Shown: one piece after another, positions 53,092 through 59,277 of the stretch
Numbering within the stretch: position 1 is the stretch's first letter
Layout: each line of letters opens with the position of its first letter
From: Runella sp. SP2
Lineage (GTDB): Bacteria; Bacteroidota; Bacteroidia; Cytophagales; Spirosomataceae
NCBI RefSeq assembly: GCF_003711225.1
Contig: NZ_CP031030.1
Span: forward strand, 4,154,001 to 4,218,000
Length of the DNA stretch: 64,000 nt
Direction of reading: 5' to 3'
The notes under the pieces: model-generated
The model's input: the letters and a program-made list of their open reading frames with translations, nothing else
Told to the model about the DNA's origin: nothing
Databases searched by the model: none
Translations under genes and position numbers: made by a program

Positions 53092-53153
53092 TTATAGCGG
53101 CAAGAAGTTAAGTACTTTTGTTTTTTGATATACGCTCATACAAGCAACAACCG

Positions 53154-54366
53154 ATGGGACAAGCGACCAATACAGCGATACGGCAGTCATTACTGGAGTT
53201 AAAAGCCTCAGGTAAAACACTAAAATATATTAGTGAACACTTAGGTGTTCCCTATGCTACCCTGCGAAACTTATGGCATAAACACCAAAAAACTCCCCAA
53301 TCAAATTTACGAACAGCATATGAGAACTGTGGCAAAAAGCCGCCCAGTAGATCCGATGTGATTTATCGAGGAGCTCTTTGGCTAAAACGTTTACATCCAA
53401 ATTGGGGAAGCCCCTTGATTCATATGCACCTGGTCAATCGCTATGGTTGCTCTCAGGTGGTTCATGTACGCACGATTCAACGTTGGTTTTTGTCAGCTCA
53501 TATGAGCAAACCACGTTCCCAAAAATTAGAACCCAAAATTGGGCAATCAACACAGGTTCATAACATCTGGCAGGTAGATGCCAAAGAACGATTAAGCTTA
53601 GAAAATGGTCAATCAGCTTGTTATTTGACCATTGTGGATGAAAAAAGTGGAGCTTGTCTGGAAGCACCCGTTTTCCCCCTATGCCCGAATCAATCAAGTG
53701 CCCATTGACCAAATACGGCAAAAACTTATTGAGGTTTTCAACAAATGGGGAAAAGCAGGTTGTTTTAGAGTAGATAATGGCGAGCCATTCGGAAGTCCTG
53801 CTGGGGCACCTACTCCGCCTTTAGCGCTGTGGCTTATCGCTCACGATATTGATTTGACTTGGAATAAACCTTATTGTCCACAGATGAATAATCGCGTTGA
53901 GAAAATGCAAGATACCACTCAACGCTGGGCAGAAGTGCAAGCTTGCCGTTGTTTACAAGAATTACAAGCCAAGCTAGATGCCCAAATTCATATTCAACGA
54001 CAGCTGTATCCAGTAACTCGGCTGGAGGGAAAAACCAGGGCGATGGCTTTCCCTGAGTTAATTACTAAACAACGCGTATTTTCAAGTAAAGACTTTGATT
54101 CAAAGAGAGTTCATGAATTTATTGCAAAAAAAATCTACACTCGAAAAGTATCATCAGTAGGACAAATTACGCATTTCGGACAAACGATTAGGGTAGGAAA
54201 AGAATTTGCTCACCAATTTGTCCAACTTAAATTCAAGCCAGATACCTTGAAGTGGCAAATCTCGAACTCCACTCAAATTATCAAAAATATTGCCGATAAC
54301 TGTCTTACTGATGATAGAATCAAAAATATGACCGTATTTTCAAAACAAAAAAACCAATCAAACTAA
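53154..54366 (+). pseudogene. DDE transposase with a +1 frame break
   Basis: The first reading frame (53154-53708) encodes an N-terminal helix-turn-helix (LKYISEHLGVPYATLRNLWH), a linker and the first catalytic Asp (NIWQVDAKERL). The second, ending at 54366, holds the second Asp (CFRVDNGEPFG) and the Glu (NNRVEKMQD). Skipping one C in the run at about 53676-53680 (ttccccctat) joins them smoothly as EAPVFPYARINQVP. The full protein would be about 400 residues. Either it is a frameshifted, inactive copy or a sequencing error in the C run, or +1 slippage is used. A TTG at 53118 is a possible alternative start. Confidence 0.85.
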
Positions 54367-56188: not shown

Positions 56189-56521
56189 ATGGCAAAAAAT
56201 AACCGCAGCGGCATTGTCTATTCTACCGACCCCAGCTTTCAATTCGACGATTCGGACGAAGAACAGGAGACTCCCACTCCTCAGCAACAAGACCTGAAGG
56301 TATGGCTCGAACGCAAAGGAGGCGGAAAAGTAGTGACGGCCATCAAAGGATGGACGGGTAAAACGGGCGACATGGAAGCCTTGGCCAAACAACTCAAAAA
56401 CCTCTGCGGCACGGGTGGCACCGCCAAAGACCGTGAAATCTTGATTCAGGGCGATTTTCGCGACAAAATCTTGACGTGGCTGTTGGCCAAAGGTTATAAA
56501 GCTAAAAAAGCGGGTGGGTAG
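56189..56521 (+). CDS. SUI1/YciH-family translation initiation factor
   Basis: A 110-residue protein with the eIF1/SUI1 fold: an acidic N-terminal extension (about residues 1-45), then DLKVWLERKGGGKVVTAIKG, LKNLCGTGGTAKDREI and QGDFRDKILTWLLAKGYKAK. Bacterial YciH affects the fidelity of initiation. The 43 bp at its 3' end (56479-56521) recur at 57810-57852, beyond the next gene, with two synonymous differences. Confidence 0.93.
   Translation: MAKNNRSGIVYSTDPSFQFDDSDEEQETPTPQQQDLKVWLERKGGGKVVTAIKGWTGKTGDMEALAKQLKNLCGTGGTAKDREILIQGDFRDKILTWLLAKGYKAKKAGG
56479..56521 (+). repeat. Left copy of the SUI1 3'-end direct repeat (candidate att site)
   Basis: 43 bp, gctgttggccaaaggttata onward to the stop TAG, matches 57810-57852 except for AAA/AAG (Lys) and GCG/GCA (Ala). 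The two copies enclose a 1288-bp segment carrying one ATPase gene. Confidence 0.9.
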
Positions 56522-56541
56522 AGCGAAAACGTTAAGGTGCT

Positions 56542-57738
56542 TTAATACAATAACCCAAAAATCCACAGAGGAATTTTATTCCCAAAACCTATTTCAATAT
56601 CATCGGCGGCTATGTAGGCATCCGCGACGTTGGCGATTTGGCGCTGGGTTTTGTTTGCTCCCCCTACCTCAATGGTATAGCGTCTATCCAACCGAAAATT
56701 GCCTTGCTCGGTATATTCAACACGGTGTTTAGGCAGCGTTTGACTCAGTAAAAAACTTTCCCGTAGTGTCCCTTTGTCAGGGCGAGTTTCTGTGAGCGCA
56801 TATTGTAAATTGGGATGGCTCAAATAGACTTTTTCTGGTTTTTGGAGGCGCGTAATCCCAAAACTATCGCGGTGTAATAAGGACAATATCCCTAACTCCT
56901 CCAAATAATGTAGGTAGTCAACGACGGAGCTACGGGTAGCTTGGAGCATATCGCCGAGCTTAGAAATATTGGGTTTGAAAGGAACACTCTCGGCCAATAC
57001 AACCAACAATTGCTTGAGTTTATCTACGGTAGCATAACTAATGCCGTAAGCCGCAGGGAGGTCAAGCTCAAGACTAAGGCGGATTGTCTCAGAAAGTTTT
57101 TGGCTGTATATATCTTCATTTTCAAGGAAATAAGGATAGTACCCGTACTCTAAGTACTTAGACCAATATACAAATGGTTTAAAATTCTCAGTCAATTCTA
57201 CCGCTATTGTAGTGTGGCTTTTTAGTAAGTCTTCTAAGGATATAGGAGTAAAATTAGCCACTTTTTGGATTTGGAGAAACTCTCGAAAAGATAGTCCATG
57301 CAAGGTGTACATTACTGCTCGGCGGCTGAGGTCGCCTCGGCTACGTTCGAGGTGAATGATAGAAGAACCCGTAAAAACAATCCTTAATTCGGCAAAATCG
57401 TCGTATAAATTTTTGATTTCCTGCGACCAGTTGGGGTAACGGTGTACTTCATCAAGCATAAGCAATTGCCCACCTTTTCGGACAAAATCAACGCCTAAAT
57501 CATATAAGCGGTGATTACTGAAATACAAATCATCCAAACTGACGTACAACGACTTAGTTAAGTCGAGTTTCGCTTCCTTGAGGTATTGTAGTAAGAGGGT
57601 GGTTTTTCCTACTCCCCTTGCTCCTTTAATCCCAATAAGGCGATTGCGCGCCCAATCAATTTCGTGAATGGCATCTCGTACGAAATCAGTACGAGTACGC
57701 TGAAGCTTGGGGAGGTATTTCGCAAATAACTGTTCCAT
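56542..57738 (-). CDS. AAA ATPase with DUF4143 domain
   Basis: A 398-residue protein of the AAA_14/DUF4143 family. Walker A is GARGVGKTTLL (about residues 38-48), Walker B LLMLDEVHRYPNW (about 92-104), and sensor-like IVFTGSSIIHLERSRGDLSRR follows. The C-terminal DUF4143 region carries a winged-helix-like part (VDYLHYLEELGILSLLHRD). Role unknown; such ATPases are accessory genes spread by transfer. It sits between SUI1 3'-end repeats. Confidence 0.9.
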   Translation of the reverse strand: MEQLFAKYLPKLQRTRTDFVRDAIHEIDWARNRLIGIKGARGVGKTTLLLQYLKEAKLDLTKSLYVSLDDLYFSNHRLYDLGVDFVRKGGQLLMLDEVHRYPNWSQEIKNLYDDFAELRIVFTGSSIIHLERSRGDLSRRAVMYTLHGLSFREFLQIQKVANFTPISLEDLLKSHTTIAVELTENFKPFVYWSKYLEYGYYPYFLENEDIYSQKLSETIRLSLELDLPAAYGISYATVDKLKQLLVVLAESVPFKPNISKLGDMLQATRSSVVDYLHYLEELGILSLLHRDSFGITRLQKPEKVYLSHPNLQYALTETRPDKGTLRESFLLSQTLPKHRVEYTEQGNFRLDRRYTIEVGGANKTQRQIANVADAYIAADDIEIGFGNKIPLWIFGLLY

Positions 57739-57797
57739 TTTTGTATTTTCTAAAATACAAAAATAGCAAAAAAGTGTATTTTATAAAATACACTTTT
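57739..57797. promoter_or_regulatory. Two A/T-rich palindromes upstream of the ATPase gene
   Basis: An imperfect palindrome (arms ttttgtatttt 57739-57749 and aaaatacaaaa 57752-57762) directly touches the start codon. A perfect 28-bp palindrome is at 57770-57797 (core gtgtattttataaaatacac). Both share GTATTTT/AAAATAC half sites and look like operator pairs, possibly for autoregulation. The regulator is unknown. Confidence 0.6.
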
Positions 57798-57809
57798 GAG
57801 GGATACATA

Positions 57810-57852
57810 GCTGTTGGCCAAAGGTTATAAGGCTAAAAAAGCAGGTGGGTAG
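57810..57852 (+). repeat. Right copy of the SUI1 3'-end direct repeat (candidate att site)
   Basis: Second copy of the SUI1 tail with its stop codon, not preceded by the rest of the gene. It directly adjoins the stop codon of the convergent DUF5723 gene (57853-57855), which suggests the original arrangement was SUI1 next to DUF5723. Confidence 0.9.
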
Positions 57853-59277
57853 TTAGTCTTTCTTGTCATTGAGTCCCCAAAGTTGGATGCCAAAATAAGC
57901 CAACGAACCACGGGGCTGTACGGCTTTGCTCGCCAACCCTCCAAAGTTGCTGAATCCGATGTAGGCAGGGCCAAAGCGCACCGAAAAACCAATGGTAGGC
58001 TTGTCGTTTCCTTCCCACCAAGTAACAGGGAGCGTAAACTCAACATCCTCCCCTTCAAAACGAGGTGTGAGTGAAAATACCTGCGGCTGGGCTAAATGAG
58101 AAGGTAAAGAACCCACGTTGGTTGGTTTTATCCAAGTAGCATTCACAAAAAACGACTTGGCCAATTGCACGTCAGCATCCACGTTGAGCGTACGCGGCAG
58201 GGCCGTCGATGAAGAATAATTTTGGGCGTTAGCCGTCCCTAGTATTGTTTCTAATCCCTTTACCGAGTTGTTTCCAATATCAATCAATTGGTTTTGATTA
58301 ATGGTCAATTTGCTCAGCGTACCACTGTATTGTTTGCCCGTTGAAGGGTACGAAATCTGTCCTGCATCCGTCAATGCCACCCCGATTCTGGCAATGTAGT
58401 TGGCTTGATTTTCGGCGTGCTGACGAATCCGACCGATTTCGACCGTTGCTCCAAGGTCAATGGCGGTTCCTGAGCCATAGTCCGACGAAAACAAACTTCC
58501 CAAACCAAACGACTGAACGGGTTGGGTATAGCCATATTCATAACTTACATTTCCCAACTCCATCACGTATTCGTCGGCATTGAGGGGTTTAACTTGGTAA
58601 TTGGCATTTTTGATGGTCAAAAAAACGTTCCGCGCCCCCGACAACCGCTTGATTGTTGCCCCTACTTTCACCCGAATCAGGCCATCCAACCGCAAAGGCA
58701 TGGCCGCTACTGTCAGACCCGTTTCAAAAAACGAGTGTTGACTCATGGTAAAATTGGTAAAACTCCCCGTCGAAGCCGTGGTAAGGCCGTCGTCGAGACG
58801 GTATTTGTAGGCATCAAAAATGGCCGAAGGTACGCCCGAGCCTTGCACAAACCCGCGCAAGCGCGTCTGAAAGCCCACCACAAGCCAGTTGTTTTTCCCC
58901 ACCCCCACGTAGCCCGATGGCGTCCTCAGTTCGGCCAATACATTTACGTTGTTCCCTTGCGTAAGTGTCCCCGTCAGCTTCGATTTGCCGTACATATCCG
59001 ATTCCGCGTAGGCATTCCGAAAGGGATGAAACAAGGCGTCGCTCCGAAAATACTTGAAATATCGGTTGTTGACAGTGGTATTGAAGGATAATAAATTGAT
59101 GTGATAACGGTAGCGCGTTCCCGCAATCGCCGACGGATTGAACGTGGCACGATTGATACCCGCATAATTGCTACTGTGCTGACCTATAAACTCTTGGGCA
59201 ACTACGGTCGAGAGGGTTCCAATCCAGAGTAAGGCAAATAGATAAACGACCGAAAAAAAAGAGCGGAGTTGTTTCAT
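57853..59277 (-). CDS. DUF5723 family exported protein
   Basis: A 474-residue protein with a signal peptide (about residues 1-28, ending VVAQEF) and the conserved start of the DUF5723 family (NYAGINRATFNPSAIAGTRY), followed by beta-barrel-like strands with Gly/aromatic alternation to the C-terminus (FGPAYIGFSNFGG ... SLAYFGIQLWGL). Probably an outer-membrane barrel; function unknown. Its stop codon adjoins the right SUI1 repeat. Confidence 0.87.
   Translation of the reverse strand: MKQLRSFFSVVYLFALLWIGTLSTVVAQEFIGQHSSNYAGINRATFNPSAIAGTRYRYHINLLSFNTTVNNRYFKYFRSDALFHPFRNAYAESDMYGKSKLTGTLTQGNNVNVLAELRTPSGYVGVGKNNWLVVGFQTRLRGFVQGSGVPSAIFDAYKYRLDDGLTTASTGSFTNFTMSQHSFFETGLTVAAMPLRLDGLIRVKVGATIKRLSGARNVFLTIKNANYQVKPLNADEYVMELGNVSYEYGYTQPVQSFGLGSLFSSDYGSGTAIDLGATVEIGRIRQHAENQANYIARIGVALTDAGQISYPSTGKQYSGTLSKLTINQNQLIDIGNNSVKGLETILGTANAQNYSSSTALPRTLNVDADVQLAKSFFVNATWIKPTNVGSLPSHLAQPQVFSLTPRFEGEDVEFTLPVTWWEGNDKPTIGFSVRFGPAYIGFSNFGGLASKAVQPRGSLAYFGIQLWGLNDKKD

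Follow-up and report, generated by a model that had tools for sequence, protein, structure and literature searches.

The SUI1 locus of Runella sp. SP2

The locus raises the question of how a segment with a single ATPase gene came to lie between two copies of the end of a neighbouring gene. The window, i.e. the whole stretch of 64,000 nt of Runella sp. SP2 that was analysed (genome code G000), contains a SUI1-family gene on the forward strand (56189..56521, 110 aa; PF01253, E 1.5e-19), which is intact and has matches in 12 of the 13 genomes of the genus. The last 43 bp of this target gene (56479..56521, forward strand), ending exactly with its stop codon, constitute the first copy of a direct repeat. 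The second copy, a spare SUI1 end (57810..57852, forward strand), is found at a spacing of 1288 bp and adjoins the stop codon of a DUF5723 gene that is convergent with SUI1 (57853..59277, reverse strand; PF18990, E 1.5e-24). The copies are identical at 41 of 43 positions and both mismatches, AAA/AAG and GCG/GCA in the SUI1 frame, are synonymous; a longer and looser match of 48 bp at 92% identity starts at 56474 and 57805. This is the arrangement given in the initial annotation, a 43-bp SUI1 end flanking a 1288-bp segment with one ATPase gene, and its coordinates, its identity and the two synonymous differences hold. Other direct-repeat families in the surrounding 5-kb stretch are 14–29 nt long. 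The window ATPase has a flanking-repeat score of 38 (threshold 18), and a chance repeat is ruled out by the 169 neighbouring control ORFs, none of which reaches 18.

Following copy 1 there is a 20-bp linker (56522..56541), missing from the empty site, which ends at the stop codon of the ATPase gene (56542..57738, reverse strand, 398 aa). The product is an AAA_14/DUF4143 ATPase that is PDC-S01-like according to PADLOC; the Pfam AAA_14 match has an E value of 2.7e-29, and the DUF4143 match is under the Pfam cut-off (24.8 vs 28.1 bits). This gene is the main ORF of the insert, and no recombinase was seen there in the ORF list or with Pfam, in agreement with the earlier description of the unit. 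The insert does not have the layout of an insertion sequence, as its main ORF is an AAA_14 gene and its inverted repeats are located in the upstream region only and not at both ends. The upstream region of the ATPase (57739..57797), previously noted as palindromic, does contain two near-identical 18-bp palindromes (57742-57759 and 57775-57792) and two perfect inverted repeats, and is a probable promoter/operator; about 58 bp of it is conserved with Dyadobacter copies. A 12-bp linker (57798..57809) is located between the palindromes and copy 2.

Elsewhere in the window, two overlapping ORFs at 53118-54366 (forward strand) look by eye like a frame-broken integrase-type transposase; in Pfam the first gives sub-threshold HTH-type matches and the second none.

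Empty and occupied sites in the genus

A comparison of the SUI1-DUF5723 junction in related genomes, proposed in the initial annotation as a way to find an empty site, gave such a site. The ATPase insert is present at two of the 12 SUI1 loci, in G000 and G002 (L019), and the other ten have no match to the ATPase; DUF5723 is detected downstream of SUI1 at nine of the 12. G002 has the same insert with the same junctions, and its two 43-bp copies are identical. SUI1 directly abuts DUF5723 in G007, with one copy of the 43-bp stretch and no ATPase, and G003 has a near-empty site with a few bases between the two genes, also with the ATPase absent. The single copy without ATPase in G007 and the two copies in G000 and G002 indicate an insertion with a 43-bp target duplication. 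Two findings that had been named as speaking against an insertion were not made: relatives do not all carry the ATPase at this place without the repeat, as G007 and G003 lack the gene, and copy 2 is not part of a conserved 3' region of DUF5723. Native DUF5723 sequence is ruled out for copy 2 because G007 shows the SUI1 end there, abutting DUF5723 in the empty arrangement.

Between G000 and G002 the ATPase is 95.3% and SUI1 96.4% identical, and the similarity of the two values is as for one insertion inherited by both genomes. At position 31 of the repeat there is a G in both G002 copies and an A in both G000 copies and in G007, which suggests a later exchange between the copies or a parallel change.

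The same relation, two copies at the occupied and one at the empty site, is found for locus L237, whose 71-bp repeat is single in G000 and G003. Both flanks extend beyond the repeat in G000 and mainly the right flank in G003, making this a clean empty counterpart. The 55 bp repeated at L212 are single in five aligned genomes (G001, G004, G005, G006 and G007), and the homology of the upstream flank ends exactly at the repeat end in G001, G004 and G006; nothing in the relatives corresponds to the sequence that follows the second copy, and the site is a partial empty site. Another partial one is the L200 site in G000, where 88 bp of different sequence stand before one copy of an AraC gene end. 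The relatives' alignments gave no informative empty site for L190 and L242. The L212 site in G000 (L325) and G002 (L323) contains a palindrome remnant with no ATPase match, and at the L200 site in G007 (L299) 85 bp of the ATPase are left, indicating that the genes are lost as well as gained.

Repeats around other ATPase genes

A direct-repeat scan of 113 homologue entries, from which apparent 400-bp repeats at L051 and L097 were excluded as indexing artefacts, gave long direct repeats around homologues that are unrelated in sequence to the SUI1 repeat, e.g. a 143-bp repeat in Dyadobacter luteus (L022) made from the end of a Na/H-exchanger gene as judged by Pfam, and a 71-bp repeat in Pedobacter sp. 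V48 (L025) over the end of a 40-codon lipoprotein-like ORF. Within Bacteroidota, flanking repeats with a score of at least 30 are present at 12 of 68 ATPase genes, as against 3 of 177 ORFs of these loci that served as controls (5/177 at score 20), with p between 2e-5 and 2e-4; by eye, five of the 12 (L063, L054, L046, L095 and L028) resemble dispersed or simple repeats, as L031 and L052 perhaps do too, and all were kept in the count. Plasmid-borne ATPase copies outside Bacteroidota gave 0/10 at a score of at least 18, the best being 17.5 in Collinsella.

The 13 genomes of the Runella genus have AAA_14 genes at 112 places, 1 to 16 per genome. For the genus-wide count 103 of these were used and 101 scored (L240 has no downstream flank, the window copy was added separately, and nine were either not retrieved or not given a score of their own). 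Repeats with a score of at least 18 flank 12/101 AAA_14 genes and 0/169 other ORFs in the same loci (p 4.9e-6), leaving 89 of the 101 with no repeat at this threshold; with a looser score of at least 16 the numbers are 13/101 and 2/169. Included in the 12 are the shared-flank pairs L198/L200 and L219/L220, and L219/L220, L242, L244 and L223 are doubtful, since they may be dispersed repeats or terminators. Duplication lengths vary between insertions, being 23, 43, 54, 55, 59 and 71 bp in Runella and 143 bp in D. luteus. When the window is added to the 12, the downstream repeat starts at most 21 bp from the ATPase stop in 10 of the 13, and between the end of the upstream repeat and the ATG there are 60 to 174 bp.

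The repeats are derived from different kinds of sequence. At L200 the repeat covers the end of the AraC gene and stops 1 bp past it, the 23-bp repeat at L232 reaches to the stop codon that closes an open stretch of 96 codons, and at L237 a gene start with its leader is duplicated. Intergenic sequence or terminators are the source at L212, L190 and L241, the last of these (15 bp) being under the threshold.

Near-identical ATPases at different sites have only the upstream region and the ORF in common. The pair L226/L229 shows 97.3% identity from -132 to +3, L023/L106 87% from -57 to +5, L101/L104 91% from -56 to +1, and L028/L031 91% from -107 to +1, and the linkers between this unit and the duplications vary in length. 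L237 and L243 are 97%-identical ATPases at different sites with an identity that stops a few codons before the stop; their last codons differ as if the C-terminal tail came from the landing site. Occupancy is patchy. If one shared flank is enough, the 103 AAA_14 genes represent 75 sites, of which 55 are found in a single genome and none in more than four, and if both flanks must match they represent 89 sites, 79 of them in a single genome; both site counts may be inflated by contig ends in draft genomes.

Comparison with other accessory families

Two other accessory families were scored in the same genomes. PDDEXK_2 genes (57 scored of 62 places) have repeats in two cases, L345 (39 bp, identical) and L374 (67 bp), both in G002, and insertion of the same kind is possible for this nuclease family. 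AAA_21 genes (30 scored of 63 places) gave 0/30. The pooled controls, 2/87, differ from the 12/101 AAA_14 genes with p 0.013. AAA_14 was counted both as genes and as sites and the two control families as genes only; with sites, 10/75 against 2/87 control genes again gives p 0.013, and the six sites judged cleanest (the window, L237, L212, L200, L190 and L232), 6/75 against 2/87, give p 0.15. The enrichment over other accessory genes is modest, and with a pooled p of 0.013 but a cleanest-site p of 0.15 a mobility specific to the ATPase family is likely but not proven.

The ATPase protein

The window protein matches the PADLOC model PDC-S01 with E 7.4e-29, and all six other repeat-flanked proteins that were tested match it with E values from 3.5e-62 to 2.5e-171. 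A 2026 survey (PMC12988326) ranks PDC-S01, in its available text, fourth in frequency among prokaryotic defences and describes its architecture as an ATPase fused to a domain of the PD-(D/E)XK superfamily; most candidates of this kind, the survey says, still await validation. From these matches a defence function of the window ATPase is predicted. The structure model (pLDDT 89.7) contains an AAA+ domain, for which Foldseek places ORC, DnaA and RuvB-like proteins at the top of its list and TnsC at rank 45; whole-chain TM-scores are 0.24-0.40. The Walker motifs and the motif E357-x-G-G-x-x-K363 are invariant in 44 homologues, and D347 is conserved in 42/44 and replaced by N in the window protein. 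The C-terminal domain alone gave no PDB match at E ≤0.001.

Origin of the insertion

The reading that we favour, with a probability of roughly 0.7, is that the locus represents one event of a recurrent process, in which a single-gene ATPase unit was inserted between SUI1 and DUF5723 with a 43-bp target duplication. A stretch of some 1.29 kb, carrying a single gene for a PDC-S01-type AAA+ ATPase and the palindromic promoter region upstream of it, should then have entered between the two convergent genes, most likely before G000 and G002 split. The cuts in the two strands would have been offset by 43 nt, and filling in of the overhangs would have produced a duplication as long as the offset. SUI1 and DUF5723 are both intact because the duplicated stretch reaches exactly the SUI1 stop. 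At the empty site the stop codons of the two genes adjoin each other, so the right-hand cut presumably had to fall between them, and the placement at a gene end probably reflects the survival of harmless insertions and not recognition of a site. The palindromes upstream of the ATPase may act as operators. More generally, the ATPase family appears to move as a single-gene unit that leaves target duplications of variable length.

The initial annotation had called the locus a gene-end integration, and of this a discrete insertion, the empty site in G007 and a SUI1 gene kept intact by its duplicated end stand. The part that fails is an att-type event with a donor-supplied end, where the SUI1 3' end would be the att site, the element would bring a replacement end and the recombinase would act in trans or have been lost. 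A repeat that ends exactly at the SUI1 stop with synonymous differences only is what such an event should leave, and the repeats at the AraC gene end (L200) and at the stop of the open stretch (L232) are in line with it. However, an att site predicts a common core at the other ATPase copies, and the repeats there are unrelated in sequence and of different lengths, one of them from a gene start (L237). Neither a constant att core nor a recombinase was found, the insert having the ATPase as its main ORF, and ten of the 12 SUI1 loci are without a match to it, while the identical copies in G002 are as a target duplication predicts. Integration at a SUI1 att site is therefore rejected as very improbable. 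A single homologous crossover with a circle that carries the ATPase and a stretch of homology, whose length would set that of the repeat, has been proposed for Arabidopsis genes with flanking repeats in the available text of PMC2869330, and exchange between copies would fit repeat position 31, where the two copies in G002 have another base than the two in G000. Against it, every circle would need a piece of its future target, and no such piece is common to near-identical units at different sites beyond their operator and ORF, making this explanation quite improbable too.

The remaining explanations concern what performs the insertion. The ATPase may itself be a minimal self-mobilising element, one gene being both a defence factor and its own insertion enzyme, with an AAA+ motor and a C-terminal PD-(D/E)XK-type domain that nicks the target strands at two points, separated by tens to hundreds of nucleotides, and integrates the gene that encodes it. 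The unit contains no gene besides the ATPase, near-identical units are present at different sites, its Walker and E357-K363 motifs are invariant, and the description of PDC-S01 in the available text of PMC12988326 includes a domain of this superfamily. We consider this unlikely, since the aspartate conserved in 42/44 homologues is N in the window protein, the C-terminal domain alone has no significant PDB match, PDDEXK_2 genes leave the same footprint, the linkers between unit and repeat vary, and no fixed terminal sequence was recognized by eye. If true, the ATPase would represent a class of transposons in which an AAA+/nuclease chain takes the place of the DDE, HUH, serine or tyrosine recombinase, and this would explain why the family is both abundant and patchy in Bacteria and Archaea. 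A real possibility, although at somewhat less than even odds, is that host repair takes up stray DNA at staggered breaks, with frequent transfer and retention as the sole reason why the ATPase is over-represented. The 39- and 67-bp repeats at 2/57 PDDEXK_2 genes and the variable linkers are consistent with such capture, as are the transposed Arabidopsis genes with flanking repeats of at least 15 bp (PMC2869330, available text). Unexpected under it are the 0/30 for AAA_21 (pooled p 0.013) and the recurrence of the same gene family as sole cargo. The ATPase is the only gene present, but the second family with the same footprint makes a host or trans-acting insertion machinery at least as likely as the ATPase itself.

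Relation to known long target duplications

Restriction-modification systems are reportedly also inserted with long target duplication (Nobusato and co-workers, in 2000). The duplications are of the order of 100 bp in the available texts of PMC1643837, PMC3031569 and PMC3874152, and these insertions resemble that of the window ATPase in having no recognised transposase, a long and variable duplication and an accessory, defence-type cargo, and in being brought to light by comparison of related genomes. The Runella case differs from them in its cargo, a single ATPase gene, in its occurrence in Bacteroidota and in its recurrence within a single gene family and genus. By this analogy the AAA_14/PDC-S01 ATPase would be a new cargo family of a known type of insertion. 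IS1549 and IS1634 likewise insert with direct repeats that are long and vary in length (8-514 bp), and by 2008 no model of the mechanism existed according to the available text of PMC2266710; they encode transposases of the IS1634 family, whereas the Runella insert encodes an AAA_14 ATPase. The transposed Arabidopsis genes (PMC2869330, available text) resemble the ATPase as ordinary genes at new places between direct repeats found at the orthologous empty site, and differ in being eukaryotic and in the circle-and-homology model discussed for them. PDC-S01 has the ATPase architecture in common with the window protein and the six repeat-flanked proteins that match its models, but it is defined as a defence candidate, and its movement is not discussed in the available text of PMC12988326, in which the terms 'direct repeat' and 'target site' do not occur. 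Among the papers found on the ATPase family (DUF4143, COG1373, PDC-S01) and on long target duplication, none links the two in its available text.

Movement of a lone gene with long target duplications would tie PDC-S01 to the selfish behaviour described for restriction-modification systems, and suggests how single-gene defence candidates scatter over genomes. The duplication is also a countable footprint with empty-site controls, by which insertions can be dated and the machinery behind them sought.

Variants among the ATPase loci

At L244 in G009 the ATPase is located between repeats of about 200 bp, with motifs that by eye resemble integron attC sites, and for this copy an integron-like cassette is a possible alternative to a long-duplication insertion. 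L223, L232, L241 and L244 have iteron-like repeats in 2-3 copies (units e.g. TTTGTTACAAA or TTTTGTGACAAA) just upstream of ATPases of 449-454 aa, and the shorter AAA_14 genes have palindromes at this place.
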